Positions 15,531 to 53,000 of a stretch of DNA of 64,000 bases are shown one piece after another. How positions within the stretch are numbered: the first letter of the stretch is position 1; each line of letters starts with the position of its first letter. The DNA is taken from the NCBI GenBank assembly GCA_963971425.1, contig OZ020514.1, forward strand, positions 24,540,602 through 24,604,601. The letters are read 5' to 3'. The position numbers and the translations under genes are program-made. The DNA is from Bryoerythrophyllum caledonicum (taxonomy: Eukaryota; Streptophyta; Bryopsida; Pottiales; Pottiaceae). The notes under the pieces are model-generated. The model saw nothing but the letters and a program-made list of their open reading frames with translations. It was not told the DNA's origin and did not search any database.

Positions 15531-18351
15531 ATGTCGACTTCGGAGGGCGACGATGATCATGTTGATGCTCCCGTGAACCTTGACCTTCCTGAGTTTGATG
15601 TTATTCCGCACCGTCTCTGGGTCGGGATGATTGTTTTGCTTCACAATGGTTCGGGTGTTCGCATTGCGGAGGGGTTGGTTCGCAATATCCGGTCTAGTGC
15701 AATTTTAGGTTCCTCTGTTCCTCTTGGGGATTCTAATGTTGTAGTACAGGTGTCCAGTACTTTAGTTCAGGAGGAAGCTCCTGATGAATGGAGGTACTCG
15801 TTTAAGTCCTGGCCAATTCAACAAGTCTTTTTAAACGGTGTGAGTCTCTTCCATCATTGCCTTAGGGACGTTTACAATGTCTGGTTGGTTGAGCGTGACA
15901 GACCTCTAGGTGGAAGCTCCCGTTCGTACAACAATTCCTCAAGGAATACTCGTCCAACAGTGTCCAGGAATGTTGAATTCCTCATGACCCCTCATTCCAT
16001 TAACGCTGTTGCGTGCAATAGTTGTTGCAGTCAAAGCTGTGTTCAACACTACCCTAGAGATAAAATAAAAGTACTCCGGACGTGCTTATACACTGAGACC
16101 ATTGCGCAGTTCAGAAATCATATCAAACTCGACGTTCATCGACAATTTCATAGAAACTCTGCGAATAGGAAGGTTGTGACCCTAGAGGGTGTGGATGTTT
16201 GTGCCCATGCCTCGATGAAAATCATGGGTGTGAGTTCGAGTACTTTCTATCGGAATGCAAAGGACGTTGCCGCTGGTCATGCGGCTCAACATCATGGGAA
16301 TACCGGTTTGCGTAAGCCTAGAGGTCATACGGTTGTGGCTACTGCCGCTCTTGGAGCCATCTTCGATACACATGCGGACCACATGCCTCACAAGTCTCGT
16401 GTTCTCCCTTCTGGCGAGAAGGCTGTGGCAAAGGTCTTTCCTGCAAGTTTTATGTGGAAGGATCAGATACCGCTTCTTGATGATAATCTTGCTGATTGTG
16501 GATTGCCACCAATCTCAACCTCAAGCTTGAGTAAGATTCGGCGAGTGAGCTTCCTGAATACTATGCCAAGAGAGGTGGAGACAACTTTGCCCGTTGTTCT
16601 ACGTGTAACAAATACTAGGATCAGAAGAAGCTTACTCAACCTGGGACACAAGCATCATTGCTATGGCAGAAGATGCAGGTTCACATCGATTCTGCTTTTG
16701 CACATCAGAACTTGTACTACCTGAACCGATTTCGATCAAAGTCATCGCCCCAGGAGGTTCTAACCATCATGCATGATAAGATGGATCACTCGAAGACCGC
16801 CTCCCCGGTTTTTTCACATAAAACAAAGCACTTAGATGGGCTTATGAAGTTGCCTCTTGCAGTCACAGGCATGCTTGCCCATGGTCATGTGGACCAGCGC
16901 TACGCCCATTACGGCCTTGATTTATACTCCCATGATGCCAATTACACGGTCGGGTCATTCGCAAAACTATTGCGTGACCTGTAGGCGCCCTATGAAATCA
17001 TCTTCCCGGCAACTTTTTCCTGAATCTAGTTCTCATCCATTGTATGTGGCGATTTTACAGGGTGCAGATATGTGTTTGGATCCATTAGGGCCAATTCAAG
17101 ATATCCCAGTTCCAGGGAGGCCTTTGCCTCCAATATTGAACGTGTAAATGGACAATGTTGTTGGTGACAACAAAAATAGATTTTTTTTCTATTTTTGGTC
17201 TCTCCTTGTTGCCAAACGCATCTTCTGCGAGGTACATGTTAATTTCATGCTAGTTGGTCATACACATGATGAGATAGATGCATTATTTGGATGTTAGAGT
17301 ATGACACTGAGGAAGGAGAGTTTTCCAACCATTCCTTTGCTCATGAGGTCGTTCATGAAAAATGAGAGTGTTCCCACATCTCATCCAAGAGGTTCCTGAC
17401 TTTAAGAAGTTCATTGGGCATATGATTGCGGACGGTGATGAAGCTTTGGAGGGTCATACAAAGGCTCATCAGTTCAAGTTTTATGTGGACTCTAGTGGTT
17501 GTCCGGTAATGAAGTATAAAATCCTTTGTCATGATGAGGATTGGCTTCCTAAGGGAGGGGAAGGTAGTGGCATCAAATTGTGGAAGGAGGATTCTGAAGG
17601 GAGGTCTTTATGGCCTCGCGGAGAACCTAATGCATTGAAGCCTTGTACGATGCGGCATCTCCATGAGGTGGTGAAGGGACTTTCAGGATTCATCGATCAC
17701 TGGGAGCAATCATCGCGGGAGTCTGTTGAAGCCCGTTCGCGTTTTGAGCCGCTATCGTACTATTGGCGCGATGTTAGAGATGCTCTGGCCCTTCCAATGG
17801 ATACGTCGATATCATTGGAAGACGGCTTTTGGCCAAGAACGCGAATTGCCCATGCCATTGAAGATGAGTTCTCAGCGGAGGGTGAGGTTTGCGAGGAGTA
17901 CCGTGAAGATGAGCATTTAGTTGGCCAGAGACGCGATCGTCCACCTCCTTCTTTTAGAGTTGGTCGTGATCTTTTTGCTGGCTATTTTGTTGCATTGCGG
18001 CCTTGTGATGGAGACGAGCGCCCATTTTGGATTGCTCAAGTAATTTCAGATCCTAATTCTAACCCGGATATGCCAAACACCGTGCGTATCCAATTCTTCC
18101 GCCCTATATCGCGCGATCAGGATGTTCTGAAGTTCTATATAGATTGGGATACAGATTGCAATCTTCGCTGGACAATTGAAAAGGGGATAGCCATAACGTG
18201 GAAGAGTACCGATTCAATCTTGACAGCATGGAAACCTAGGTCTTCAAAGAGGGATGGAGGTCATGTGCAAGATTCAACTACAAAAATTCCGAAGGGGCAA
18301 GTAGCGATTATCAAGGCCTCCTTGGAAGCACTTGCCAGGTTTGAGTCGTAG
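15531..18351 (+). pseudogene. DUF7869-type transposase-like gene (copy B)
   Basis: ATG at 15531 follows a GGAATGCAG acceptor-like site. The N-terminal part (VIPHRLWVGMIVLL) is of unknown type. Next come LEGVDVCAHASMKIMG and a HADHMPHKSRVLPSGEK region, a zinc-type FARCSTCNKY, HDKMDHSKTASP, KLPLAVTGMLAHGHVDQRY, MDNVVGDNKNRF and LVGHTHDEIDALFG. The last two carry the acidic residues expected of the RNase-H-like catalytic fold in DUF7869 proteins. The C-terminal open frame (17362-18351) includes LIQEVPDFKKFIGHMI and a BAH/tudor-like module (VALRPCDGDERPFWIAQV). Breaks: a one-base shift near 16545, TAG near 16620, a shift near 16981, TAA just before MDNVV (CAA ancestor), and TAG after FGC. The protein is therefore in at least three frames. 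It would have been the transposase or an essential TE enzyme of the family-1 unit. Copy C lies at 50.0-53.5 kb. Confidence 0.75.
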
Positions 18352-27271: not shown

Positions 27272-27365
27272 GTATTCATGACTTGCTCTAACGCGGCGGT
27301 TGCAGGGGATCGGTCGGAGCCTGCGGAAGAGGTTGACATCCATTAGCAAATGGACAATGGCTCCC
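27272..27365 (+). pseudogene. First exon (5' part) of third ParB-like gene, interrupted by CACTA
   Basis: The exon follows a GATGCAG acceptor-like site. An upstream ATG frame (MTCSNAAVAGDRSEPAEEVD) is closed by TAG just before a second ATG at 27350. From 27350 the frame runs into the CACTA insertion point and resumes at 40416, reading MDNGSPILEHRA up to a gtaagt donor at 40436. The target duplication CCC marks the break. The first ATG may be the original start, with CAG changed to TAG. Confidence 0.55.
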
Positions 27366-27390
27366 CACTACGACAGATTGCTACCTTTAT
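27366..27390 (+). repeat. Left terminal inverted repeat of CACTA
   Basis: 25 bp starting CACTACGACAGATTGC; perfect complement of 40388-40412. Preceded by target duplication CCC. Confidence 0.97.
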
Positions 27391-27399
27391 TGCAGGCGT

Positions 27400-28210
27400 T
27401 TATGACTGCGTAGAGTCATAAATTCACAGGAATATGACTACAGTGGTTTTTCAGAATATGACGCGCGCGGTGACAGGGTCTAGTAGTTACCGACGAGTCG
27501 CTTCGGACAGCCAGTCATTTGAATAAATACGCCTTGAAACGTATACTCAGCCCGAATGTACGTGCCACGTCAGCATTTCCGCCCCCAATTTGACCGGTCC
27601 CATTGACCAAGACTTTTCTTGACCTGCCCGGGCAGCTGAGGCCAAAATCCGACGTGGCATGTGACTCTGGCTAGTCATATTTTTTGCTGACGTGGATTAT
27701 GACTCCGTGGAGTCGTATTTTGCTGACGTGGCACCGCCACGTGGAATATGACAGCCAGTCATATTTTGGGCTGACGTGGAATATGACTCTGTGAAGTCAT
27801 ATTTTCGCTCATAATGTTGAGCACGTGAAATGTGTTTGCTAGTCATATTTTGTGCTGACGTGGAATACGACTCTGTGGAGTCATATTTTCAATCATAATG
27901 TTCAGCACGTGAAATGTGTTTGCTAGTCATATTTTGTGCTGACGTGGAATACAACTCTGTGAAGTCATACTTTCAGTCATAAAATCAGCCACGTAAAATG
28001 CGACTGCTAGTGATATTTTTGCTTACGTGGAATATGACTACGTGGAGTCGTATATGGGCCGATATGACGGTCCGTTATTCCTAGTGTTGTGACTACTTTT
28101 AGTCATGTTTTCCAGATCACTAGTCATATTTAAGTGCAAGAGATGGATAACTGGTTCCAGTCACATCAATTTAGCTGTATGACTTTGTGGAGTCATATAC
28201 TGAGAATCTA
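27400..28210. repeat. Left subterminal TATGACT/AGTCATA array
   Basis: More than a dozen TATGACT or AGTCATA words appear, many as dyads with a 5-7-bp spacer such as TATGACTCTGTGGAGTCATA. A longer tandem unit of about 80-90 bp includes GCTGACGTGGAATATGACT. In En/Spm, subterminal repeats of this kind bind TnpA; the same role is likely here. Confidence 0.9.
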
Positions 28211-28426
28211 AGAGCGAGAATTCAGAGATTCTGGCATCACAAATGACGGCGTGCTGTTATAGTTGCATTAGAGACAGTTGTTAACTACACTCCTGTATTC
28301 TTCTTCATCACAGGCAATGATGGCGCAATGTAGGGAAACGTAATGGGGTCCATCAACAAGAACTTTGTGCAAAAAAAGCCTCAATAGGTTGTATTTAGTT
28401 CTTGGAGAGGTCTTACGTACTATAGC

Positions 28427-31400
28427 TCACGCTGCCTTCAATGCAGCTACGGGCCATTTCGTAATGGAGTTGAGTGCATCCCCCAAGCGTTGCATTGGTG
28501 GATCATCGTCATTGTTAGGCTCGAACAAATAGAGCGTTTCCGAACCTGGGACAACCGATGAAATCATTACCGACGCATTATCTTCCTCAATCATCCGGCC
28601 GTGCATCGTGCCTCCTGCAAGGCTCACAATCGAGCCATGAGCCACAACTTTGTCAGTGGGCTCGTTATTATCGTCAAAATCCATGACGGCCACCTTCGAT
28701 TGCGGTGCCAACGTTGCAAGTGCCACCTCCCCTATCAACTGCACGGCTTCACGTTCCTGTGTCAAGAGTTGAAAGGTCCACCATATTAATGACTAGAAAA
28801 TACAACTAACAATTTCTAAAGCAAATACCTAACAATAGGATGGAGAAGAAAGGGAGAGAGAGCTTGCATGGTTTCATTATATGGCATATGAAGCGGTCAT
28901 GGACCTACCGGGATAAGTGTTATTGCAGCTAGGCGGATGTTCTTGCCCAAATATTCCACGCAATATTCCATGTCCGATGGGTTACGGGCTAAGGCCTGAA
29001 ATGGCTCTATTAGGCGGCTCAAGTAGTCGTCGTTAGGCTCTAGTGGGTCCCATCGTGGACAAGTGAGGACATTTGAGGGAGGAGACTCATTCGTTGCGGT
29101 TGCATCGCAATCGAATTGAAGGCAACGAGCTTTAATAGCTGATGACATAGGGACTGCGCTAAAGAAATCATGTAGATTTCTCTTACTACCGCCAATTTCC
29201 TTTCCCCACAAAAAACTCCACTTCACCGATGTGGAGTTTACCAAGAACTTAGCTACAATCTCGAGCAGACTATGCTCAATAGGCGACCATATCCCCACGT
29301 CAAATCGACTACGTAACATGGACAAGAAAGGGCCACAATCAGCCCTTTTCTTGATTTTGACCTTGTGGTCTTGATCGTAGTAGACCAGTAGATCTGCACC
29401 CCACTCTTGCCTATCGTGTAGTGGCCTGATATCACATAGAAGCCCCACAACATTCAAAACGATGACCTTTCTACGCAAATCATCACAAATCCTTACCGGT
29501 GGACATTTCCCCCCGCCTCTAGCCTTCTTCTTCTTAGCAGGACTACTTCCTTTGTTTGCCCGCTTCTTCTTTGCGGCAGGCTCCTCCTGGCTCTCTTCAT
29601 CATCCTTCGAGCACCACATCGCTTACATACAGTCAAACAATGGTTTCCCACAAACGAATGCATATATAACAAGACTCTGTGATACAGTGCTGTAGTGCAT
29701 TTATGACTAATACGTGTAATATACAGTGGAATTGTCACTGGATTGTGTCAGATTTTTGAGATACGTTACTCATACTTGTGACATTTCATTGCTTATATTA
29801 CTGTGTCTTGTCACATTCGCTCGGTATATTACTGATCCCTGTCACATTCGTTGGGTACATTACTGATCCCTGTAGCATTCACGTGGTTTATCACTAGTTC
29901 ATGCTAATCACAGGGTTGACTAATCCATACATTTAATCTACTCTCTCATACATTTCATGTATTTGGAAGTGGAAGGGTACCTTGTCCTTCGCGGTCGCGC
30001 GGCGCGTGGTACGACCTTTGCGATCCTCCAAGAGCTTCTCGGCCTCGCCCTTCCTCTTCTTCGGCGATTTTTTATCCTTCTTTGGCATTGAGGGGGGTTC
30101 CGGATCCGCACCTTCCTTAGAGTTTTTGGCAGCCTTGGCTGGTTCAATCTGAGAATTCAAACATACAACGCCCTCGGCGTCACCGGACTTCACAGTAGCC
30201 CCTTCCTCCTAATAGCAGACATCAAAGAGAAGTGAGTACAACAAACAACCTAACTGATTGACCAACCATCTATTAGCTTGATTCACTATTTTCAGTACGT
30301 TCCTGGGTGTTGAAGTCATACCTCTGCTGCTCCTTCAGCTACCTCATGACGAGTCATGTGGACCTCTTCATCCGTGTTTGTTGCGGTTTCATTTGTGCCC
30401 CACACAGGATCCATGATTGCCATAGAAACAACCGGCAATTTTGTTGATTGTGGATGGGCCTCCTCCAATCCCGTATTGCCCATTTCTGAGGATTCAGGTG
30501 CGGTCGATGGCAGCCGATGCTTCCGGAACTCGAGTAGCAGCTCCTTCATGCTGCTTTTCATGTCCTCTAACTCGCCTTTAACATCTTGTATGTGTGCCTC
30601 CACCTCGCTCCTTAAAGCTGCAAGGCCTCTTGGATTGGACCCTCCGCCTCTTGAAGTGGACGACTGTGGGCGACCTGATTTGCCGGGTGTCATGAGCTCT
30701 GCTTCGATTTCCAATTGCGTTGGAGGCCGATCCAACTGTACGGCCTGTGAGAGAAGCAACTGATCATCCATAAAGATCTATGCAATTATCAATACGGGTC
30801 AGAATCACAGTGAAGAGAAGCGTTTTATAATTGTACAGTGATATCACTATCTGCAGTCACCTAATTGTCTTGAGATTGGTAATATGACTCTATAACGTTA
30901 CAAAATCTAGTTGCATGTGGCTGGAGAATATGACTGCCTTCAGTCATTCTCTGTAGGAAATCTCACTGTCAGTAGTAAAGTGAATGTCAGCAAGCAGTCA
31001 TACCATCAAAAACATTTTAGCAGAAGTTGGTGAACGTGACTTACAAGGCGAGATCTCACTTCCCCTTCAGACCTCCCGGAGTGCGACACGTTCTGGACAA
31101 CTTGTCTCACGTTCTTCATACGTTCTGCCTCTGCAATCTTGTCTGTCCTTGCTATCAACTTCTTGAAGTTCTCCGCATGCTCCTTTTTCACGTACCCTGG
31201 CAGAGGCTCGCCCTTATCGAGAAGCCTCTTCATATTTGCCCTCTTTGTGCGCATTTGTTGACGCAATTCTTGGAAGAACACGTCCTCTGGAACATCCTCC
31301 AGCCCACTCCGGTATTCAAACTGTGCCGCCATCCTGTCCTTGATTGCCATGAGCAGCACTCGAGGATGCAATTTGAAGTTGTCCACGCTTCAGTCCAAGT

Positions 31401-33452
31401 CGCGGGAATAGCCACGAAGTTTGGTTAGCCAATTAGGCCTATGCGCTCCCGTCGGGCATCCCAGATTATCAACTTCAACCCACATTTGGGACTCCTTGTC
31501 TCCGGATCTCTTCATACTCCGCCTCAAATCCTTCAACTTGGACTGACGGTGTGGAGATGTTTCAAGATTCCGTACCTTCTTTCGTAATTCATTCGGATCT
31601 GCACCCTTTTGCGCCATCCGCCTCAAGACCCCAAGTTCACGTAATTCAATCTCATCAAGGAGTTCCGTGCATTGCTCCGGTGGTGCCTCCTCCTCTTCAT
31701 CTTCAGTGTACCGCTCTTCCTCGGCATCCTCTTCTCCTTCAGACCTTAGAAGGGTCTCATCTTCACCATCGGTTGTACTCCCCAGCATTGTCGAAGAAGC
31801 CATGTTGCTCTTCCTTGGACGAGATTGCACTCTCCAGGAGGTAGGCTTATCGCCAGAACAACGTACCCCCTATAGGAAATGATTGAGATGGAATTTAACG
31901 GGCGCCTACAGTATGACTGAAACCCGCTATGTTTATTCAATTATGACTTCACGTAGTCATAATCACAACAACATCACTACAGGTAGTCATATTCGACACT
32001 CAGCATGACTGAAACTAGTTATGTTGTACTCACCATGACCGAAACATATTTTGCACTCACCATGCCTTGCATCAAACCATATACTAAGGCAAAGTACAAG
32101 TAGTTTGGATTCTTGCCTTTCGTTTTTTTGTTTGTAACGGCTCTTCTACGAGTTCGTCCTCACCGTCGTCGTCTTTGCCGCTAACACCTTGTGGTAGTAG
32201 CCTCCTTTGCGTTGATCGGGTCCGCGATGGCTGAACACTGGAAGGCCCTTCGAAGGGCACATTATGGCTGCTCTCAACAACATCCGCAATCTCAATCGAA
32301 GTCATTTCCAAGACCGGCAAGGTAGTCGCAGGGAAACTAGCAATTGTTCGAAAAACTTCAATTTGTGCATGGTCCGATAGATTAGCAATGTCTCTTATCA
32401 CTTTTCCAACTAAATTAGCCATATCCACAGAATTTATGACTACTCCAAGTCACTGCTGCAGCTGAATGTGACTACAGAAAGTCACGATCTCTGCACATAC
32501 GACCCCACGGTCTCACAATATGAATTACAACTTCATTCATGATATTTGGGGTTTATGTAAATTACTGGGAATTCATTAATTTCTCATACATTATTCGAAG
32601 AAGACCCTAAACCCAAAAGAATAAACTCCAAAACTAACATGCATGGATTTGAAGCAATCGTTCAAGACCATAACATCTGACAACGAAAAGTTCAGATCCC
32701 CACCCACGAAAAACTTGACAAAGCAAGAACAAGGAGGCTCATGCTCGGGGGTATGAAGTTTGTGAGTGAGAGACAAAGAATGAGCAGTTGTTGAGCTAGT
32801 ATAGAGGCCTCGTGGATTATCGGTGGACCAAACCCTAAACTATCAATGATGGCACAACTCTAATCGAAGGCCATGAGGGCGACCTCACCCCAAAAAGGCT
32901 TCACCGCAGCAGCTCTGAGCTTGAAGGCCAGGAGGGCGACCTGATCACGGGTAGGAGGGCGACGGCCACACCCCCGAGCAACCAAGAGGGCGACGACACC
33001 ACCGGTGTTGACCTCGGCTATGGACGGCCACGAGGGCGACCAGGAGGGCGACGGCCACGAGGGCGACTAGGAAGGCGACGGCTACGAGGGCGACCAGGAG
33101 GGCGACCAAGAGGGCAACGGCCAGGAGGGCGACGGCCAGGAGGGCGACCAGGAGGGCGACGGCCAGGAGGGAGTCTTCTCCGAATTCGGCCATATCCTCA
33201 CCCCTGAGCGCAGGAAGGGCGACCTCACAACCGACATCGGAGCCTCGATGCTTTGCCCCTGTGAAACCCTAACTTCGGCCTGGACTCAAGACCAAGCAGC
33301 AAGGCGCACGAGGTTTCAACTCACCTCTTGTCTTGCGGTCGCTTGAAGGTCGTTGGTGCAGCCATAGGCAAGCCTAAACCACGCATCACCTCCTTGTTCT
33401 TGGCAATCGTGTTGTTTCTCAGGTTCTCGTAATCTGATTGCTCAGGGGCCAT
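28427..33452 (-). CDS. TnpA-like CACTA protein, multi-exon, with one in-frame TGA
   Basis: The first exon runs from ATG at 33452 ([16 protein letters not shown]) to a gtgagt donor after 33325. Later exons: about 32428-32084; 31872-31045 ([19 protein letters not shown], then [18 protein letters not shown] and [12 protein letters not shown], the layout of plant Transposase_24/Ptta proteins); 30774-30324 (coiled coil); 30214-29950 (Lys-rich); 29619-28911 (a domain of about 200 aa I do not recognise); and 28765-28427. The last ends in [16 protein letters not shown], which resembles the TNP1/En-Spm C-terminal domain (Transposase_23). Several junctions keep phase (for example 31045/30774, 30324/30214 and 28911/28765); the junction into 29619 is unsettled. 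A TGA at 31390-31392 breaks the Transposase_24-like part in frame. The product should bind the TATGACT subterminal motifs; the TGA would truncate it unless spliced around or read through. Confidence 0.75.
32930..33185. repeat. GC-rich GAGGGCGAC minisatellite in CACTA
   Basis: Tandem 9-18-bp units of GAGGGCGACGGCCAG type lie in the predicted first intron of the TnpA-like gene, near the divergent promoter region. GC-rich repeats in the first exon or leader are also a feature of maize Spm. The Ala/Val/Leu frame through it is not a gene. Confidence 0.85.
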
Positions 33453-34611
33453 CGTGCTTGGTCACACACTCCGCCTCTGAGAAGCGCACTAACGGCAGTC
33501 CAGGATGGTCGCTACAGTGCGCGGTAGGGTTTGTTAGTCGGCCACGTCGCCCTGGTCAACGTCCTTTGACCGATCCCCGCCGACCTGGTCTCGGTTACGG
33601 GCTCCAATTATACGTGTTACTACCTTTGGTCATTCGTATCTGTGTGACTGCCTTCAGTCATACGTATGACTCGCTATAGTCATGTGACTCCATCCTCCAG
33701 GCCGGGACAGGGGTGGAGAGCCCCTTGAATTTGGTATGGATTGGTTTCCTGTGATTGTGTGTAGAAAATTTAAACGACACAGTGTCGTCTCCGGCTTATC
33801 GCTCATGCAGTGCGTATGCCTCTCGGTGATTGGGTGTTAGATTATAATACCAATTGATTTTTAACTTTGTTGCTGTTTTTTCAGTAAAACTTCAATGGTG
33901 ACCGGTGTGGTGAGAAGCACCATTAATGTAATATGTTAGTGGGTGTCAAATTCCTGTTCATCTGAATCACTACCAAATCACATACACTACGTATAGCTTG
34001 CATGTCCTGATAAGCTAGTTTGAAGTTTGCAGTTTGGATGTAGAATTGTGTCTGCTTTCTTGTCCTGTGGTGCACGATAAGGTTTAGAGTAGGTACTTAA
34101 TTCTCAAATTTAGATAAGTCCATTATGATGTATGGTATAGATTTTTGTTCTATTCAATCATTAACAACTCACATATACTACACATGGCTTGCATGTGTTG
34201 ATAAGCTGGTTTGTAGTTTGGAATCAGAGCTTGTTTGTGTTGTGGTGTAGGATAAGTGTACGGTGGCTTTCTAATGTTAAGTAGGGGTTAGATTGTATGT
34301 GGGTACTTGATTAGATTGGGTGGTGAATGGTTTGATTCCTGATTATAGATTCTCAGAATTTTATGACAACTTCCAGTCATGTATGTGACATTCGGAAGTC
34401 ATATAACACCCTCTCGTCATTTGCATCACTATCTCTTGTAATAAATATGAGCGATTCCTCTTATATGACTTTCTCCGGTGATATTTCCGTTGCACAAAGG
34501 TATGCTCATTTCAATATCATAAGTGGCGTGTAATGTGTATAAGAATTGTATTGTCATTGCCTCCAAGAGCTCCTTGTCACCCTGAACGTGTGTTTTGGTT
34601 CTTTCCATAGG
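33453..34611. promoter_or_regulatory. Divergent promoter region between TnpA-like and TnpD genes
   Basis: This 1.16-kb gap separates the start of the minus-strand TnpA-like gene from the start of the plus-strand tnpD gene. It holds TATGACT/AGTCATA copies at about 33645-33690 and 34365-34475, so a TnpA-like protein could act on both promoters. No other gene is visible. Confidence 0.6.
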
Positions 34612-37600
34612 ATGGAAGAAGGGGAGCTCCAATGCTTAAAGCATCTACAATTATGGCAAGAGGAAGAGATTCAAGCGGATACCTTGCGATTAACAAAATA
34701 CCCATGTCCATGCACTGAATGTGCAGGAGGGAAAGTTCTTGATCGAGCCGCAATTCGGAAGCATCTTCGTAGTAGAAAAAGGGACCCCGTTTTTACAGCA
34801 TCGATCTTGGTAAGTGATTGCAACCAACCAGTCCTTCTAAATTAAAGCGATGTGGTTCTATGTACTGTTGTAGGGTTTAAAAGTTTGTGTTCATTAATTA
34901 TGTAGGATCGGTGGAGACCCGTTGTCAGATCAGCATGTTTAAAATCACTGACAACGTTCTTAAGTAAAAAAAAATCCTCCGATCACGCCATGATCACGCC
35001 ATATCCACACCTACATCCGCAAGAGTCAGTCGCTTGCAAAAGTGGCGTTCAGATGTGTACGACGGACAATGGTGCGACGGGCTCATTCCAAAGCTAACAC
35101 GATTTTCATATTGGAAAAGAGATTGGGAAGTGAAGGTGTCCAAATTTGGCTTCATGGGTTGGGGTCTATTTGCAATGCAACCCGCCAAAGAGGGTGAGGA
35201 ACTGCTTCCTTTCGTAGGACCACAATACACCTCGGCAGAATACAAAATATTGAGCAAGGCACAACCTCGAATGAAGTCGTACGTGATGCGTGCGGAGTCG
35301 GACTTGTACATTGACGGAGATGTAGTGAAAGGGAATGTCGCTGGATTCATTAATAGTTCCATTGGGCGCAGTGAGATAGGAAATGTTGTGTGGGAGTTTC
35401 GCATGTTTCCTAAACCGTGGAACACTTCGGAATGGGGATATGTGATTACCATAGCAACAAGAGACATCAGGGCTGGAGAAGAACTCTATGCGCATTACTT
35501 CCTACATCAGAGCACTGTGTGGTAAATGAGTAAATATAATGAAAGACTAGTTGAGGCCTGAACGGCAGAACTACAATCGGTGCATGTCTATGTAATATGA
35601 CTAGTATCAGTCAAGTTGTTTTCAAGATGACTACAAACAGTCACTATTCACTCCTGTAATGTGATTACTGTCAGTCATATTTTGCACAGCACGTCTTCAA
35701 TGAGTACCTTCTTTGTGTGAACAACACTTAACACATGGACACACTTGTCATGCACGTGGATGAATTTGCAGGATGAGTACAGCCCCCTGAATTTGGTCCA
35801 AAATATAGAGCGCAATGGTGAAGATAGCGAGTCTGAGTCTAATCATACATTGGACGGCGGAGAAGTTGGAGAAGTAGATGTTTTGCGCATGGTGGCAGAT
35901 TGCTTCAACAAGTATGACAATGTCAACTTAGGGGGGAGCGAGACAATCCCAACTCATGATGACGGAGTTGATGATGTGGTACTTGAAGCTGCGCACTGCC
36001 CGGAGGATGGCTTCGTACCGAGTGACAACGAAGGTAGCGATGACGAGACGGAGGAATGCAACAACCCCATGGAATCAAGAGGGACAACCATGAACATGAA
36101 CGACCCTAGCGGCATAGCCGTGGACATCCTATTACGTGATGCGAAGACTCCACTTTATGTAGGGAGCTCTTCCAACCGTCTCACCTCCACGCTCATGCTA
36201 CTTGTTTGTTGCACCACATTTGGCGTACCAAACAAATTTGTGGACGAGTTGTTGAAGTTATTACGGGAGACAATATTGCCCAAGGGCAACACACTTCCGA
36301 AAACATTTTACGAGGCAAAGTGTATGTTGATGAAATTGGGGTTGTCCTACGACTCTATACATGCGTGTAGAGATGGGTGCTGTTTATTTCGGAAAGATTT
36401 AGAGGATGCAACGGCGTGCCCTGTTTGCTACAAATCCCGGTATGTAGACAACTCCACCACAATACCTGTCAAAGTATTGAGACACTTCCCATTGATCCCT
36501 CGTTTGCGAAGAATGTACAGTTGCACACGTTTGGCAGAGCTCATGAAATGGCACGTAGGCGGAAAAAGCAATGACAAGGTTATGAGATCTGTGGTTGACT
36601 CAAAGGCATGGAATCACGTGAATAATAGATGGCCTGAGTTTGCAAATGAAGAACGTAATGTTAGGCTAGGCTTGGCACTAGATGGTGTTAACCCGTTTCG
36701 GAACCAAAGCCTTAGCCACTCAACGTGGCCCGTGGTCATGCTAAACTACAATCTTCCCCCTTGGCTAGTGACCAAAAACTTCTTCATGATGCTCACGTTA
36801 CTGATACCCGGAAAAGAGAGCGTGACGGATAAAAATGTGGATGAGTACCTAGCACCATTAATGGAAGAGCTACAAGAGCTATGGAAAGGGACCGATTGCG
36901 TAGATGGATCACAAAGAAACTCTATCAACAATACATTCAAACTCCGGGGCATGTTATTGTGGACGATGAACGACTGCCCGGCATATGGATTGATTTCTGG
37001 CCAAGTCACAAAAGGACATAAGGCGTGTACCGTGTGTGGCCCCAATGTAGTAACTCGGCCCTCAAAGGCACTGAAGAAGAATGTCTACCTTGGGCATAGA
37101 CGGCATTTGCCAATGGCGCACCAATGGAGACGACAAAGGGCCAATTTTGATGGCCAACCCAACATGAGACCTCCACCACGAAGGATGAGCGGTCGAGAGC
37201 AATTGCACTTCGCGAATGAGCGACAACTGTGGACAAGAAATAACCGCGAAAACGAAGGAGGACAGATGCCAGACCCTATACATGAACATGGAGTAAAGAG
37301 AAGGACATCTCTCTTTGACCTTCCGTATTGGAAAGTACGTGTGTCTAACGCACTGTTGTAGTGTGACATGACAGTATGTAGTGATGTTATGTTGCGTGGA
37401 CTCTACATTATGACTGTGCATAGTGATAATCAGTTTCATTGGCACTAATGTTTAGGACTCAATGTGCAATCATATACTGTGGAATGTGACTAAATATAGT
37501 TGTTGCTGTACTTCATGGAATCTAATTTGTGACTGACCGGAGTCACTGTACAGGATCTTCTAATCCGACACACGTTGGATGTCATGCACTGTGAAAAAAA

Positions 37601-39643
37601 CATCGCTGAGAATATCATGAAGACCATATTTGGAGAGAAGGACACCCTCGTAGCCCGCCTCGATATGAAGGAAGCGGGGATACGCAAACATCTATGGCCT
37701 GTACAAGGTAAGGAACCCGGCAGCGTCATATTACCTCGCTCATCGTATGTTCTTACGAAAGAAGAGCGACAGGTCTTTGTAAACCAAGTGCGTTCCTTGC
37801 GAACCCCATCTCAGTACGTTGGGCAGCTAAAGAAGCGTGTTAGCATGGATGGGAGTATCAAAGGTCTGAAATCACATGACTACCATGTCCTTCTCCAGCA
37901 AGTGTTGCCACTATGTGTGCGCACTACAATGGCCAAGGAAGTTCGTACGGCAATAATAATGTTGAGCCGGGTATTTCGGCGGATATGTGCTAAGTCCATT
38001 GATCCCAAGGCAATAGAAGATATGAGATGCGAAGCAACCATCGCTTTATGCATGTTGGAGAAGGTGTTCCCGCCGTCGTTCTTTGACATTATGAGTCACT
38101 TGGTTATACACCTTGTAGAGGAAATTGAAATTTGTGGACCCGTGCATACGCGATGGATGTACCCTATAGAGAGGTATTTGAAGACACTCAAAGGCTACGT
38201 TCGAAATCGATGTCAATCAGAAGGCACCATGGTTGAAGGCTATGCTGTAGTACAAGCATTGGGATTTTGCACCGAGTATATGCAAGAGTATACGACTACT
38301 ACACGAAGAGTGTGGGATGATAAAGAAGACCCGTCCATGTACGACGAGATACTTGAAGGCAACGAGCGTCCACGCAGATTGTCAGTTAACCTTCGGGGAT
38401 GGATTCACGAGTTCGTGGTGAATAACGCGGCGCCATTGGAAGATTGGCGCAGGTGAGTTAACATCACTATGGCTTACGTAGAATATGACTGCGACTATAC
38501 CTAGTATAATTGTATCCAGTGATGTTGATGATATTCATGACTACCTTCAGTGATGTTTACGACGACTCCTCGTGATATCAATGACTGCCCATAAATGTTG
38601 ACGTCTGCTTCTAGTGACATCACTGTTTGCCTTCACTGTTGGCTGTGACTGCACCCAATGATGTAGTTGTTGCCAAGACTGACCACAGTCAGCTACATAC
38701 TACCTTCTACTCTTAGACAATTTTGTGAAGGTGCACTGGACCATAAATAACTCTTCTATCCTACAGGCGACACGAAGATGACATGGCACGTCGAGAAGCA
38801 GAGCGACACGAGTACAGGCGCAAGAAGCGGAAGGGTAGGACAGCCTACCCGTCAGAGATGTGTGATGAAGATTTCCATGTCTGGTTTCCAAGGGCTGTGT
38901 TACGAGCTGTACAAGATGGAGACGAGCAGGTCCCTACCGACGTATTGGCCTTGATGGTACCTCCATCGGACGAAGCCAAGTCGTATCGGTCCATGTATGC
39001 ATTTGGAAACCACCTACGCGTGCGGAGTGCAGAGGCGCAACTCACAACCACAGACTCTAGAGTAGCCGCTACCTTTGGTCAACTTTGTCGCGCGGGTACA
39101 AAGGATACAAATCTTAGGGCTGCACAGTTGGAGTATGTGGGGTGGGTGGAGGAAATACTATCAGTGGACTATGGACAGTTTGAGGTGGTGGTCCTATATT
39201 GCAATTGGGTGGTTGCAAACATGAGAGGAGATGGCGCCACCATGAAGCGCGACGATTACGGTTTCAGCACCGTTAACTTTCAGAGATTGATCCCATACTC
39301 TGCACAGTCATTTGCCTTTCCCCTCCACATCGAACAAGTTTTTTTTGCACCAGACTTGGCGAAGCGTGGATGGGAAGTTGTGATGCGCAAAGAACCGAGA
39401 GGAGCTCGGTCATTCTCCAAACACCACTTCTCGGATGAAGTCCAATGCATATCATTGGGTAGAGCGTGTGACTTTCCCGGACTGAAATCTACGAGCCTAG
39501 ATTCGGATTCGATAGCACAGACACCTATTCTGGTTGGTGCGGTGGAAGTAGCCCCAGAGGTGGTCGCCACAACATTAGAACGCCTCAGAGAGGATGACAC
39601 ATCGGTAGATGATTTAGAGTACAGCGACTCAGAGGAGGATTGA
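34612..39643 (+). CDS. TnpD/tnp2 transposase of the CACTA element
   Basis: The first exon 34612-34809 encodes a transposase-associated zinc domain (CPCTECAGG..IRKHL) and ends at gtaagt. Exon 35772-37334, after TTTGCAG, carries the tnp2 catalytic domain: LLVCCTTFGVPNKFVDELL, CPVCYKSRY, LALDGVNPFRNQSLSHSTWP, MNDCPAYGLISGQ and KACTVCG. Exon 37554-38452 begins DLLIRHTLDVMHCEKN and continues through the DUF4218-type region (VHTRWMYPIERYLKTLKGYV). Exon 38767-39643 contains a DUF4216-type region (GWVEEILSVDYGQFEVVVLY, RDDYGFSTVNF) and ends at TGA. Junctions 37334/37554 and 38452/38767 are canonical gt..ag and keep phase. No stop interrupts these exons, so the gene looks intact. A SET exon lies between the first and second exons and may be part of the same transcript. 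Confidence 0.9.
34968..35525 (+). CDS. SET-domain exon/ORF carried by the CACTA element
   Basis: The frame is open from 34968 to a TAA at 35523-35525. Counted from Leu at 35034, GFMGWGLFAMQP (about 39-50) matches the SET N-terminal GxG motif, NVAGFINSS..NVVWEF (about 101-122) the pseudoknot Asn region, and ATRDIRAGEELYAHYF (about 141-156) the C-terminal GEEL..Y motif. No ATG precedes the first motif, so it is probably a spliced exon. An acceptor at 35042 (GCAAAAG) would join it in frame to the 34809 donor, giving a zinc domain-SET fusion. The junction onward to 35772 is less clear: gtaaat at 35522 is out of phase and a weak GT at 35517 is in phase. SET proteins are lysine methyltransferases, mostly on histones; the canonical NHSC is replaced here by INSS. 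The product could mark chromatin at the element. The SET call is strong; splicing and activity are inference. Confidence 0.8.
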   Translation, partial: KKILRSRHDHAISTPTSARVSRLQKWRSDVYDGQWCDGLIPKLTRFSYWKRDWEVKVSKFGFMGWGLFAMQPAKEGEELLPFVGPQYTSAEYKILSKAQPRMKSYVMRAESDLYIDGDVVKGNVAGFINSSIGRSEIGNVVWEFRMFPKPWNTSEWGYVITIATRDIRAGEELYAHYFLHQSTVW

Positions 39644-40117
39644 GTCTCGGTTCAATCATTGACAGTTCTATACATTTCAGTCGTTGCCATATCTATGTAT
39701 ACATATATTCACATATGCATATTTAATCAGCAACCTCACGGCTTGGGCAGATAATAAACATGCACTTAAACCTCTGTAACCAATATGCACCATTTTCAAG
39801 CCAATTGAAAACCATTACGACATGCATGCTCAAAATTATAAACTGAGCAAGCGCTCTTTTCCATATTCCATGCCAATGTAACCCCCCCCCTAGTTAGCCG
39901 AATTAAACAAAAAATTAATCATCATCTTTTCAAATTATATTCATGGACAATTCTAATAATGGTAAGGCACCTTAGAATTACTCAATTTGGGACATGAATC
40001 ATTTTTACTAACTAAATACACTAAATCCTCATACTATGCAGTGATTGGGAGGGCCAAAATACATGTAAACTGCCTAGGGCAGTGTATATAATATTGGGCT
40101 GCCCAAAAAAAAAAAAA
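39644..40117. other. 3' region of the CACTA element
   Basis: AT-rich 3' flank of tnpD with no ORF that I can support; it leads into the right subterminal array. Confidence 0.5.
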
Positions 40118-40390
40118 TATGACTACAGAAAAAATATGACTGCAAAATATGACCGCTGTGAAAATATGACTGTCAAATATGACTAGACGTTCCCTACGAT
40201 CGTTCCGATTTGTTCCCTACAAAGGTATACGACCCTCCCATGCATTTTATACGGTACAGCTGGCAAATATGACTGCAGAATATGACTGCCAGTCATATTC
40301 TCAAATTGGATTGCCACCGACAGTTTCAACCAAAAAAAATGTGACTGCCTCTAGTCGCCTGTCATCCCCAGTCATATTTTCCCAGTCATA
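40118..40390. repeat. Right subterminal TATGACT/AGTCATA array
   Basis: At least ten TATGACT or AGTCATA words precede the right terminus, mirroring the left end. Confidence 0.9.
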
Positions 40391-40412
40391 AAGGTAGCAA
40401 TCTGTCGTAGTG
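40388..40412 (-). repeat. Right terminal inverted repeat of CACTA
   Basis: Perfect 25-bp complement of 27366-27390, ending GTCGTAGTG, followed by target duplication CCC at 40413-40415. Confidence 0.97.
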
Positions 40413-40415
40413 CCC

Positions 40416-42044
40416 CTATTTTGGAGCATCGAGCCGTAAGTAAGAATTTTGCGAGAACCTAATGAGTTGTGATCGTTTTTTGGGTGGTTAGTGTTGCGTT
40501 AGGGTTGAGAGGATTATGCATCGAATGCTACTCCTCTCTGTACAAAGGGAAGGGTTGCGGCGGTGGGTGTGCCGCCGACAGCACACTCTCCGCCAAGTCT
40601 TTGACAATGTCGGCAAGGACATGGCGGGGAGTATGCCGCCGGCGGCACACCCACCGCCGCAACTCTTCCTTCTGTACAAAGAGGGTCGCGGCATTGGGAT
40701 GCCGCCGGCGGCACACCCACCGTCGGATCCTTCTCTCAAGAGGGGAGGGTTGCGGAGGTGGTTGTGCGGCCTGCCGCACACTCTCCGCAAGGTCCCTGTC
40801 AATGTCGAGGAGTGTGCCGCCTCCACTTACGGAGAGAGTGCAGGCGGCGGCTTAGCCACCGCCTCGGCCCTCTCTGAACTCCATCAAACTCTTGAATTTT
40901 TGGTTTGGTGTTTCGATGGACAATTTGCTATTGCCATGGAGATCTGAAGTAGTGGGTTTTATGTCTACTCTGCTCCATTTAATGTTTACTTTTATTGTCC
41001 TTGTAGAATTGCAGACCCAGTCCCACGTTATCGTTCGCTAAGAAGGAGTTGATACTGATATGGAGACTCGTGATTCATTGAATTCTGCCTCGCAGCCATT
41101 AGGTAATGCTTTGTTGTCGTCGAATTCAAGCGTGACTCATGGTATTAACATGATCAAGCAATTTAATTCTGGAAGAGAGTAAAGCAGCTGAGGATCTAAA
41201 TAATGATGATGGAGTGGAAAGTGATATTGTTGCCGAATTATCAAGCCTAGTTTGCACTCCATCAGAACCACTCTCTGTTCTCGATTTGGAGAAGCAGATG
41301 GATGATCTCGTTCTTAAAGAGACAGTCAATACAAATGCTATATTGGATGGACTTCGGTTTCAACCCAAGGAGAAATCCAAGCTTGACATCCCCCTCTATC
41401 GAATGATTGGGCTGCCTATTGTTTGACCTCATTTGAAAAATGATGTCATGGTGCTTGGATCTCATTTTTTGAATAGTGGATACATGGAAGGCTCAGGAGT
41501 TTTCTATGTTGTGACGGAAAACCACAAAGGAAAGACCGTTGATGTCACTGACGATGTCTTGAAGAATTGGAGTCCGGCGTGGATTACTGCAAATGAGGCG
41601 TTCAAGTCGAGGTTGAATGTAGACCCGGACAAGAAAGTCTTTTCCAAGAAGATGTTCCATGTCTGGGACGGCAACCATCCCGTCCAGGCATGGCTGCCAA
41701 TTATCAACCGTAATCACGGTGATGATCCTCATTGGCACTACGCGGTGGAGTCCATTCTGTTCAATGTCAATGGATACATGGCGGTCCTGCTTACTGCACT
41801 TCATCAAGTAAACAAGTGAGAATCATTGATCTCATGCTGAATCTCATACAACATTTCTACATCAATTTGAGAAAATGTCTTATTGGCTCGTTGATCCAAC
41901 TATGTACGCATAACCAGAAATCCTTCGTCACCACAAATTTGGTTCACAAGCTCTACTGCATCACAGGGATGGTTGGGCAGCCTCTAAAGTATTTGGAGAA
42001 GCTTGTTTCGAAGGCAGAAATCAAAGCGGCGGAAGCAGAGTAGA
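40416..42044 (+). pseudogene. Remainder of third ParB-like TE gene (copy E)
   Basis: The interrupted exon finishes at 40435 with a gtaagt donor. An intron full of family-3 palindromes follows, with an acceptor near 41006 (CCTTGTAG). A short exon (METRDSLNSASQPLG) ends at another gtaatg. The main part (41170-41819) reads LEKQMDDLVLKETVNTNAIL, IPLYRMIGLPIV, TGA (CGA ancestor likely), then HLKNDVMVLGSHF and FHVWDGNHPVQAWLPIIN. The latter is a DGNH loop like the (N/S)GQH loops of the genes at 7.0 and 20.2 kb, followed by LLTALHQVNK, matching the xxNRVNH element. A last piece (about 41900-42044) ends KAEIKAAEAE. No methyltransferase-like segment is present. The CACTA insertion and the stops make this copy non-functional. 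Confidence 0.6.
40540..40860. repeat. Family-3 palindromes filling the intron of copy E
   Basis: Three or four units of about 60-110 bp, each with a GTGCCGCCGGCGGCAC-type dyad (near 40571, 40631, 40692, 40763) and a recurring GTACAAAG(A/G)G flank. Overlapping ORFs on both strands here are by-products of the dyads. The intron is bounded by 40436 and about 41006. Confidence 0.85.
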
Positions 42045-42229
42045 ACTCCGTTAAGCGAACGTGGTACACGCTCACTTTGAAGTCTTTGAACTCCGTCCTT
42101 TATCAAATATAAATTCGGATCCATCAACTCATTACTTCAAATTCAGCCTTCGCAAATTGGTTCCAATACATGCACTGCTGCCTCCTTTCAACGTGGGCAT
42201 CGGCGCCGGCTTAGTCCATAGCGACGACG

Positions 42230-42810
42230 CAATGAAGTGTCCCGCCAGGGGCTCACCTCCGCTGCCCCTCTCCTTTAGAGAGTTGCGGGCCGCATAAGAG
42301 GTGTGCCGTTGGCGGCCCACCTCAAGCACATGCCCTTTGGCTTGCTCGCGATGCCAGAAGGGTGATTCTCTACACAGCGCGTAGACCAAAGGGCCTGCGC
42401 AATGGAGTGTGCCGCCAGCGGCACACCTTCGCCACCCCTCTCCTTTGAGGGGTTCGCGGGGCGTCGAGGTGGTGTGCCACTGGTGGCACACCCCATTGCG
42501 CAAGCCCTCTGGCTTGCTCACGGAGCCAGTGGAGTGTTTCCCCGCACCGCACTTAGGCCAAAGGGCCTACACAATGGGGTACGCCACCAGCAGCACACCT
42601 CCACTACCCCATTCCTTTAGAAAGTTCGCAGGGCGCGGCGGAGGTGTGCCGCTCGCGCCACACCCAAAGCACAAGCCCTTTGGCCTACTCGCGGTGTCAA
42701 AGGCGAGATTCTCCGCACCACCTTTAGGCCAAAGGGCCTGCGCAATGGGGTGTGCCGCCAGCGGCACACCTTCGCTGCCGCTCTCCTTTGAGAAGTTCGT
42801 GGGGTGTGAG
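42230..42810. repeat. ~180-bp tandem repeat with family-3 palindromes
   Basis: Three units of about 180 bp, each carrying two dyads of the GTGTGCCGCCAGCGGCACACC class, with shared text GGCCAAAGGGCCTGCGCAATGG. They lie just 3' of copy E, so this is probably the right subterminal array of that element. Reading frames through it are repeat artefacts. Confidence 0.85.
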
Positions 42811-50019: not shown

Positions 50020-53000
50020 GGTTAATCATTGATGCAATTTTGTCCCTCTGTGGAATTGTCCGTGTCTTCGGATCCAATTTCTTTGACCAAGAGGCAAACA
50101 AGACGGCATCAACATGAACGCTAACTGGACGTCAATTTTCGGGAACCCACGTCGATGTCCAACAATCCTCGTACTTCTTTTTGTGGTCCTTGAACGCATT
50201 TCTTGGCTTCCAGAATTGGAAAATGAACTTTCCATACTCCTCATGTCCAACTTCTCTATTGACTATTGAATGCGCTCTTCCTAACCAGACATGATATATT
50301 TCAGGGTCTGAGGGACGGAGTAGGATCCATGATCTCGGTACGACATCTCGCCATGGATTCAACGACTCATTTGGCTTTTCCGAGCGTGGACCACAGTAAA
50401 TTTCAAGTTCGACGTCTTCAGGTGTGACATCTCCTCCAGCACTGAGATATAAGGGAGTTCGACTTGTCGCACTCTAGTCATGGATTGGCTAGAAGCCTTC
50501 TACCAGGGCCGAAGGAGTGGGAGGAAGAGGTTGTTCTAGTTTTGCAAGTATTGCATTCCAGTAATCGACATAAGGTGGAAAATCCCTTCGAAAGCCCTTA
50601 TATGAACACATCCCTTGTTCCCAGTATTGTATATAACCTCGTATTCTAGACTTAATGAACGACCTCTTATCGAGTATTTTGGCAGCTTTCTCTCTTGCCT
50701 TCACTTGATTGGCGATTGAAGAAGGAACCTCGTCTCCCCACAATCGCTTGAACGGAACTGGGTTTGGGAAGCCGAAAGGTATGATGGGATTGCCGTTGTT
50801 ATCCTCCTTCCAAAGACGTAAACATGGCTTGTTTTGAGGTAGCCAATGCTGATCAATTGTAGACATCTTGCAACGCATGACGGGCCAACCGTCTTCATAG
50901 ACGTTGAATTTGAAGAGGTGCGTCTCTCCAAAACCAATAAGACTTTGTGCACCATTACTTATATAACCAGAGACAAAAGATTTGAAATTTGCAACCTCCT
51001 GAACAAAGTCGGGCATAAACTCATCTCCTGCGATTCCATGAAGGACTTCATCAAATCAACAATGACAAATGAATTCTTATTCTTCAAGGCCTTGGAAAAG
51101 TGGCTGAAGTATGCATCAGTATCCTCATGTGTGTACCCGACTAATATGAAACCAACTTGGGTTTCCTTGAACACCCTTCGGTAGTCAACATAGATAAGAA
51201 CGCCATGAGAAATTGGTTCTCATTATCTTTTGCAGAGTTGTCTAGCTGCAAATATAGATTGTTTGGTAGTGGGATGGCTGTAGTTGAGTAGTACGGTACC
51301 ACCGTAGGTAAAACTTCCATACATCTAGACTTCCCTTTAAGCAATGCCACAAAGAATGACTTTGTTGGCTCGTAAGGGAAAAGTCGACCGGTGACGCGAA
51401 TGGATGGTTCCTCGAGACGTTGAAGTAATCTTGCAATGGACAAGATGGTATAATTTGAGTCTCCCGGCTACAAGTCAGTAGAATAGTGAGCGTCTCCATG
51501 TTCGTGCGTGACCATGCCAGTGACGTTCACCGGGAGCTGACCAAGACCTAAATTTTGTTTCGTGGTAACTCGCATACGAGGGATGGCAATCTTGGCAGTA
51601 TCCATTTTATTGTGGATAATGCAAATGATTTTGCCCTTCTTGCGTTTAGACTCCTCTCTCTAGGTATGGTACACACGCCTACACGAAACTTGGTGGTTCA
51701 AGTGTGCATGTCGTTGTTCAATTAATGACACATACTCGGCGGAGCCCTTCATGGATTTGCTAATGAATTGTTGAAGAGTATCACAGAGGGCGCACTTTGC
51801 AAACGAACTGCCCACATGTTTTACAGCAACATTGTTGAAGAATTCCTTCTTGATTCTACTTATAGCAGAGTGAGAAACCTTGGGCAACCCGTACTCCAAG
51901 TTTGTCTGCAAACATAGAGAAACAATGAGAATCAACAACATCAACATTGGGGCTACTATTGGCATTGAAAGATCCTTCGATCACATTAAAACTCGTATCG
52001 CTTCCAGTAACGGTGAGTACAGACATGTAGGCATCAAATACGACCAAGTGATCGTTTAGATATTGGAAGTTGCGAAAAGATTGCGTGAAGACAATTTCAA
52101 ATATGGATACGGGATCATTCATAATGAAGTGTAAGTGCTTTTGGTATCGCCGCGCAATGGGAGTGGTTGACCAAGAAGGGTTATTGGAGCAATGAGGTGG
52201 GTTTTATACATGTTTACCTCTCTGGCGTCAGCCTGAATCCTCTTCCAGCTATGACTTGATGGTAAAAACTTCACTGTGTCCGTCCGCCGTGGTAAAGTCG
52301 TCCACATTTGGTGAGGCATGTGATTGGCGTTCTCATTGATGATTGCTGAAATCGTACCCATTGCTTGCACGATTCCAAGGCGGGGACGTTTGACGCTTCT
52401 GTTCTCGTGCGTTGATGACAAGATACCCTTTTTGTATTGGTCAATATTGCTGTGGAATGTCGACTTTGGTATACCATGAATTTTATGCCACGCTGTTGCG
52501 CAGACATCTTGACCGAGCAAAGTAATGTAGGTCCGTTTTCGATTATTGCCCACGTGACGCAGTTGCCCGCCCACAGCAATTCCATATTCCCGCCGGTCAT
52601 CAAATTCCTTCGGAAACAAGGTATCTTGGGAAACAAGGTATCTTGGGGCCGAATTAATCGAACACAGTCGTCAGGGCAATATGATAGCGAACTGGCCGCT
52701 TGAACCACATCTTGACAAGTCTTCTTTGAGTACGCACTAAGCTTCTCCTCAATTCTCTTCTTGCAATGAATAAACCAATACGGTGCTTTTGGACGACCAC
52801 CAAGATGCGCATTTGGGTCCGATGCTTCAGGAATTCGGATGAAATGAGCAATCGTCTCGCTAAGGCCATAACCGCCCTCGAGTCTACATTCGTGGATGGG
52901 CCACCTTTGATGACTCATATTGTCATCTTGATCCTCGATGAATACGTCAAATACAGTAACGCCAATGTTTTCCTCCCCCAAAGTACTGTCCTGGAATGGC

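Follow-up and report, generated by a model that had tools for sequence, protein, structure and literature searches.

Does a SET domain, the catalytic fold of many histone methyltransferases, belong to the transposase gene of a CACTA transposon, or is it a passenger there? The question is raised by a stretch of 64,000 nucleotides from the moss Bryoerythrophyllum caledonicum (GenBank assembly GCA_963971425.1, contig OZ020514.1, positions 24,540,602 to 24,604,601, forward strand), referred to as a whole as the window, in which a first-pass annotation made from the letters alone had placed a SET frame at 34968-35525, inside a CACTA element. We conclude, with a probability of about 97%, that SET is a standing and constrained component of the transposase gene in a CACTA lineage: in three subfamilies the zinc exon and the tnp2 transposase exon enclose the SET exon, which has in-phase GT-AG splice sites and a stop codon of its own.

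A SET exon in the element and its copies

The window contains a complete CACTA element of 13,047 bp (27366-40412, + strand), its completeness being read from its ends, its target site duplications and the presence of the same ends with 3-bp duplications in other copies. The terminal inverted repeats (27366-27390, +, and 40388-40412, -) are 25 bp each, start with CACTA and are 100% complementary, as perfect as the annotation had them; the 3-bp target site duplication reads CCC at 27363-27365 and 40413-40415. Direct repeats rich in TATGACT (27644-28053; 77-82% identity in a self-match) lie close to the left end, and the tnp2 exon matches Pfam Transposase_21 with an E value of 9.8e-69. On these features the element is a member of CACTA/EnSpm.

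Five exons of the transposase gene were delimited, all on the + strand. The zinc exon (34612-34809) has 66 codons from its ATG and ends at a phase-0 donor; its Pfam matches are weak, a U-box at 21.5 bits (cut-off 21.4) and Transpos_assoc at 19.4 bits (cut-off 27.7). A predicted 96-bp GT-AG intron (34810-34905, phase 0) leads to the SET exon (34906-35525), in which residues 64-177 of the frame (35157-35498) match Pfam SET with an E value of 2.2e-11 and 44.6 bits against a cut-off of 22.4. The tnp2 exon of 521 amino acids (35772-37334) follows, likewise opened by a phase-0 acceptor, and then the DUF4218 (37554-38452) and DUF4216 (38767-39643) exons, assigned by Pfam with limits read from GT-AG sites. 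Thus the SET frame and its place between the zinc and tnp2 exons were correctly recognized from the sequence.

The beginning of the SET exon had to be revised. The annotation had called the SET frame well formed, had proposed an acceptor at 35042 that would fuse it in frame to the zinc exon (junction 34809/35043) and had remarked on the lack of an upstream ATG. In 9 of 11 copies read, a SET frame of 202 amino acids runs from an AG acceptor (window 34904-34905, 3' splice site 34905|34906) to the stop, and the open frame is again 202 amino acids long in 20 of the 23 close copies in the table of genome matches. A tandem duplication of 11 bp in the window copy (34981-35002), absent from the 10 other aligned copies, disrupts the frame and makes it open late; in copy c02 one A is missing from a run of A, which also breaks the frame. 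Since the frame opens at the 34906 acceptor in most copies and these two are broken by lesions, the acceptor at 35042 is not needed. The in-phase fit of zinc and SET stands, with the predicted junction moved to 34906, and the ATG is indeed missing, which is no defect in a downstream exon. A start at the ATG at 34935 was considered and dropped, because a stop follows at 34965 in the window copy and the frame of intact copies opens at the acceptor.

The genome (437 Mb) was searched for SET with the window frame or with Pfam. The SET frame has 43 matches, 23 of them at 97-100% identity. That SET is part of the element, as the annotation had it, was tested by looking for copies with the same ends that lack it: the genome has 39 exact occurrences of the 25-bp end (20 forward, 19 reverse; 0 for the reversed control), which form 18 facing pairs and 3 singles, and every one of the 18 pairs encloses exactly one SET copy. 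Five of the 23 close SET copies fall outside exact end pairs. Ten other copies were read with their flanks, giving 11 with the window copy. Both ends are present in 10 of the 11, at a length of 12.7-13.4 kb with 0-1 mismatch per end, and in these the 3-bp duplications match within each copy and vary between sites; the right end of the remaining copy, c10, lies outside the stretch fetched. The zinc frame is preserved in the 11 aligned copies, with ATA in place of ATG in c08, and the tnp2 exon is open over 521 amino acids in 8 of 11, the window copy included; c11 and c02 have a stop in it and c10 is cut.

Linkage was also counted from the transposase side, with 83 tnp2 matches scored of 486 candidates. 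Counting a SET match on the same strand no more than 2 kb upstream, linkage holds for 23 of 24 tnp2 matches with at least 90% identity, for 4 of 4 rows (three copies) in the 60-90% class, for 8 of 36 in the 50-60% class and for 0 of 19 under 50%, where a much diverged SET could have escaped because the genome searches used one sequence or Pfam. The sole exception in the highest class, C12:23023434, spans only residues 262-521 of tnp2 and complements the first half (residues 1-269) found in c10, about 12 kb away. Seen from SET, a scored tnp2 lies downstream of 34 of the 43 matches.

Two observations concern the structure of single copies. In c10 (C12:23020368-23036677) about 12 kb separates the two halves of tnp2, which seems to reflect an insertion into this copy. 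Three elements with the same ends measure about 15.3-15.4 kb against 13 kb (C2:2847487-2862872, C839:157587-172924 and C843:104417-119802) and may therefore share an extra 2.3-kb piece.

Subfamilies, relatives and constraint

The arrangement extends beyond the close copies, which we call subfamily 1. Subfamily 2 (C15), with 79% identity across SET, repeats all five exons in the same order and has a SET frame of exactly 202 amino acids from the acceptor. Subfamily 3 (C4:5.61M), at 52% over SET, has zinc (54.5%), SET, tnp2 (49%, 512 amino acids), DUF4218 (61%) and DUF4216 (47%), again in order. The intron between zinc and SET measures 96, 97 and 94 bp in subfamilies 1 to 3, GT-AG and phase 0 in each; the phase-0 acceptor of tnp2 and the in-frame stop closing SET are present in all three. 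Apart from this, four SET copies of subfamily 3 stand in tandem at a spacing of 2,031 bp at C1:50495-57049, close to the start of the contig.

The position of SET between two exons of one gene, on the same strand, would also fit a cassette exon of a single zinc-SET-tnp2 polyprotein. That idea is all but refuted: the in-frame stop ends SET in every subfamily, the donor-like site at the SET stop of subfamily 1 (G|GTAAAT) would put tnp2 out of frame, and relatives lacking SET go straight from zinc to tnp2. Three such relatives were read upstream, and each has a zinc exon and its donor, followed after 67 bp by the opening of the tnp2 frame and after 94 bp by an in-phase AG. In these three no SET was found between zinc exon and tnp2, and zinc-to-tnp2 is therefore a complete arrangement by itself.

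Rates between subfamilies were computed by the Nei-Gojobori method. Between subfamilies 1 and 2, SET has a silent divergence (dS) of 0.917 and an amino acid-changing divergence (dN) of 0.137, a ratio of 0.149, compared with dS 0.917 and ratio 0.186 for zinc (59 codons), dS 0.959 and ratio 0.095 for the C-terminal half of tnp2 and dS 0.716 and ratio 0.266 for its N-terminal part; SET is thus as diverged at silent sites as the transposase and constrained like it. Against subfamily 3 the silent sites are saturated (proportion of differences 0.748) and dN is 0.387. DNA identity between subfamilies 1 and 2 is 79% in SET and 68% in the 96-bp 5' intron, and in the 3' intron it is 61% of aligned columns or 40% of all columns.

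Outside this genome, 27 SET relatives were obtained by protein search and 107 by profile search; among viral contigs no locus related to SET or to tnp2 was found, and none related to SET in the collection of genome contigs searched. Linkage of SET with tnp2 in the outside relatives was gauged indirectly, from equal sizes of the carrier contigs (106 of the 107 SET rows, the other one lacking a length, against the 120 listed of 1794 tnp2 matches). Among the matches listed, 5 contig sizes are equal, 3 of them with the same source. The shifted controls averaged 0.37, with 2 as the highest value. Two of the same-source matches exceed 20 kb (sizes 598,999 and 23,147), a length that none of the shifted controls reached, and the indirect case for linkage rests on these two contigs, since the third (2,846) could by itself be chance. 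Trees of the six linked SET and tnp2 pairs, three from the subfamilies of this genome and three from the outside contigs, both place subfamily 3 with the 2,846 and 23,147 contigs on one side of a deep split and subfamilies 1 and 2 with the 598,999 contig on the other, with support of 0.986-1.0. How these last three branch among themselves is not the same in the SET tree as in the tnp2 tree, for which the SET pieces include two of just 93 and 114 amino acids. In a midpoint-rooted tree of tnp2, the SET-linked outside protein P0053 adjoins the SET-lacking clade, and C529, a partial tnp2 match with no SET hit, adjoins the SET-linked P0057.

These data bear on whether SET could be a fragment of a host gene captured in the manner of Pack-CACTA elements and carried along with no role. 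CACTA elements do carry captured host sequence, according to PMC8616336, and the signal of constraint within young copies is weak. We nevertheless consider a passenger highly improbable, given three diverged subfamilies with in-phase sites and open frames, the dN/dS of 0.149 at a dS of 0.917 and the matching deep splits of SET and tnp2.

Several findings weigh against our explanation as a whole, from a constrained SET exon to the active zinc-SET protein proposed below. Besides the broken frames of the window copy and c02, lesions occur in the older subfamilies: the zinc and tnp2 exons of C15 each match in two frames, and in copy C2:32.5M a stop follows just behind the SET acceptor. Among ten young copies (c10 excluded), SET shows 8 silent and 8 changing differences where 4.3 silent ones would be expected (P = 0.042, without stops), a weak signal, and no constraint is seen in tnp2 (14 silent, 36 changing, P = 0.587, 2 stops) or in zinc (3 silent, 6 changing, P = 0.444). 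Counted by cell over all 11 copies, the SET core has 12 silent differences and 4 that are not silent. Moreover, 28 of the 36 tnp2 matches at 50-60% identity have neither a SET hit nor a SET-bearing neighbour, so that SET is not required for the spread of CACTA elements; the three SET-lacking copies described above come from these 28. The last adverse point lies in the domain itself, where the motif reads NSS in place of NHS(C).

The SET domain and its possible role

The structure model of the broken window frame was poor (predicted local distance difference test score, pLDDT, 43) and was replaced by that of an intact copy, which has the SET fold. By profile, the nearest solved structures are Set1/MLL enzymes (best E 3.7e-06), with which the domain has the fold in common and from which it differs by NSS for NHS, an identity of about 20-27% and the lack of a post-SET match; the Pfam scan of the frame gave neither pre-SET nor post-SET. 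By structure, SETD8, SET7, EZH2 and MLL tie among the Foldseek matches, and the VIA listing re-examines Foldseek's own matches and so gives no ranking of SET classes.

The NHS(C) motif of canonical SET enzymes belongs to the S-adenosylmethionine pocket. A domain that had lost catalysis and served in the element's protein to bind nucleosomes, S-adenosylmethionine or the transposase would agree with the Ser found at the place of the His, as located by alignment to MLL1, in 52 of 55 aligned sequences and with the absence of flanking domain matches. Against it stand the Asn of the motif, retained in 53 of 55 sequences, the tail Tyr (GEELYAHY, Y177), retained in at least 90% of alignment A1, and the core SET motifs as the most conserved columns; we think a purely binding function unlikely. 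Methyltransferase activity is plausible, and we lean towards an active enzyme.

How would such an enzyme be made? Each of the two predicted splices out of the zinc exon keeps the phase, and SET has its own stop; therefore one transcription unit can yield zinc-SET or zinc-tnp2. Alternative splicing would join the shared zinc module either to SET, giving a short protein of 66+202 amino acids, or to tnp2-DUF4218-DUF4216, giving the transposase. The model for two such isoforms is Spm/En, in which tnpA and tnpD come from one transcription unit. Alternatively spliced transcripts for the two, and TNPA as a DNA-binding protein, are described in PMC2613891. A zinc-SET isoform probably exists. The other way of making the protein, from a promoter or start codon of its own located between the zinc exon and tnp2 and with no zinc module, is suggested by the outside relatives P0001, P0002 and P0005, predicted by automatic gene calls from an ATG (MAS..) shortly before the domain; in subfamilies 1 to 3, however, the frame opens exactly at the AG, in register (phase 0) with the zinc exon across an intron of 94-97 bp, and in subfamily 1 an in-frame ATG is lacking upstream of residue 80 of 202, which makes a separate SET protein improbable. 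Taken as a whole, the chain up to an active zinc-SET protein is in our judgement slightly better than an even bet.

The zinc-SET product could be a helper protein with the same targeting part as the transposase, acting on the element's chromatin. The shared zinc part would guide it to the element, or to chromatin bound by the transposase, and there SET would methylate a histone (Set1/MLL being the nearest solved relatives by profile); the mark would prevent silencing of the element or aid the use of its ends. A long-carried module of histone-marking type in a transposase gene points to an element able to act on the very chromatin by which it is normally silenced, and we give a role in anti-silencing or in the element's own chromatin a little less than even odds. 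More tentatively still, one gene might encode two proteins with a common zinc part for targeting: a transposase, and a histone methyltransferase directed at the element itself, with which the element marks its own copies. Such a system would have been maintained over the whole time span that silent sites can gauge.

Elements with a partial likeness are known. CACTA/EnSpm transposons with tnp2, such as maize Spm/En and soybean Tgmt*, share CACTA ends, 3-bp duplications and tnp2 with the window element, which differs by its SET exon between zinc and tnp2; no SET is mentioned for the known ones in the parts of their descriptions at hand. HarbingerS and MuDR elements of Phytophthora carry SET genes (Kojima and Jurka, Repbase Reports 2014, as cited in PMC12730594), and thus likewise place a histone methyltransferase gene on a DNA transposon; they belong to other transposase superfamilies and oomycete hosts, and the tnp2 of the window element sets it apart from HarbingerS. 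The primate SET-mariner fusion SETMAR also joins SET to transposase-derived sequence (PMC8616336), as a host gene at one locus to which a transposase was added, unlike the mobile, multicopy, tnp2-bearing element described here. VANC of the VANDAL elements is a plant transposon-encoded protein that counters silencing and is reported to cause loss of DNA methylation (PMC5735166); plant transposons can therefore encode anti-silencing proteins, and the likeness would lie in the presumed role alone, the element studied here encoding a SET fold. The literature search found no report of SET in CACTA among the papers listed, with subscription papers mostly beyond its reach and an earlier Repbase entry possible. 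The SET-bearing element would add CACTA to the transposon lineages carrying SET genes. Transposons in plants are silenced by way of chromatin marks, and few are known to respond by encoding a chromatin enzyme themselves; a constrained SET exon in a multicopy CACTA lineage, together with SET-lacking relatives in the same genome, offers a natural comparison for histone marks, escape from silencing and insertion sites.

Other features of the window and of the genome

The element has a second gene (28897-31869, - strand) composed of several frames, which recur in other copies. One of these, 28897-29622 (-), which is also present in the 10 other copies read, has a weak match to NIF (FCP1/SCP-type phosphatase) at an E value of 3e-4 and 20.9 bits, slightly below the cut-off of 21.8; its DxDxT motif is presumably replaced by NVVGLL. 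Short repeats of the GAGGGCGAC type are found at 33022-33171, within the element and 5' of the transposase gene.

In the Pfam SET scan of the genome, 150 of 327 candidates were scored, with 149 matches, and dispersed SET families unlike that of the CACTA element were seen among those scored: 13 copies of 354 nt, 19 of 477 nt with 2 or 3 TGA codons and 14 of 462 nt with stops. One copy of the 354-nt family is nearest to EHMT1/SUV39 enzymes (E 3e-29), one of the 477-nt family has a Pre-SET match (E 7.7e-8), and a weak RING-like frame lies upstream in both copies examined. No tnp2 was found beside the four fetched copies of these further families (L054:4691-5305, -; L055:3722-4612, +; L056; L057), which may be mobile elements of another kind with a SET domain of the type acting on lysine 9 of histone H3.

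Just beyond the right end of the element, dense GC-rich inverted repeats of the GTGTGCCGCCGGCGGCACAC type occupy 40533-42788. Lastly, the frames 17359-18351 (+) and 50489-51055 (-) resemble each other on visual inspection (..QEV..FK.F.., ..LWKED..) and could be parts of a further repeated element of the window; the former has only a weak match to DUF7869 (E 0.056).
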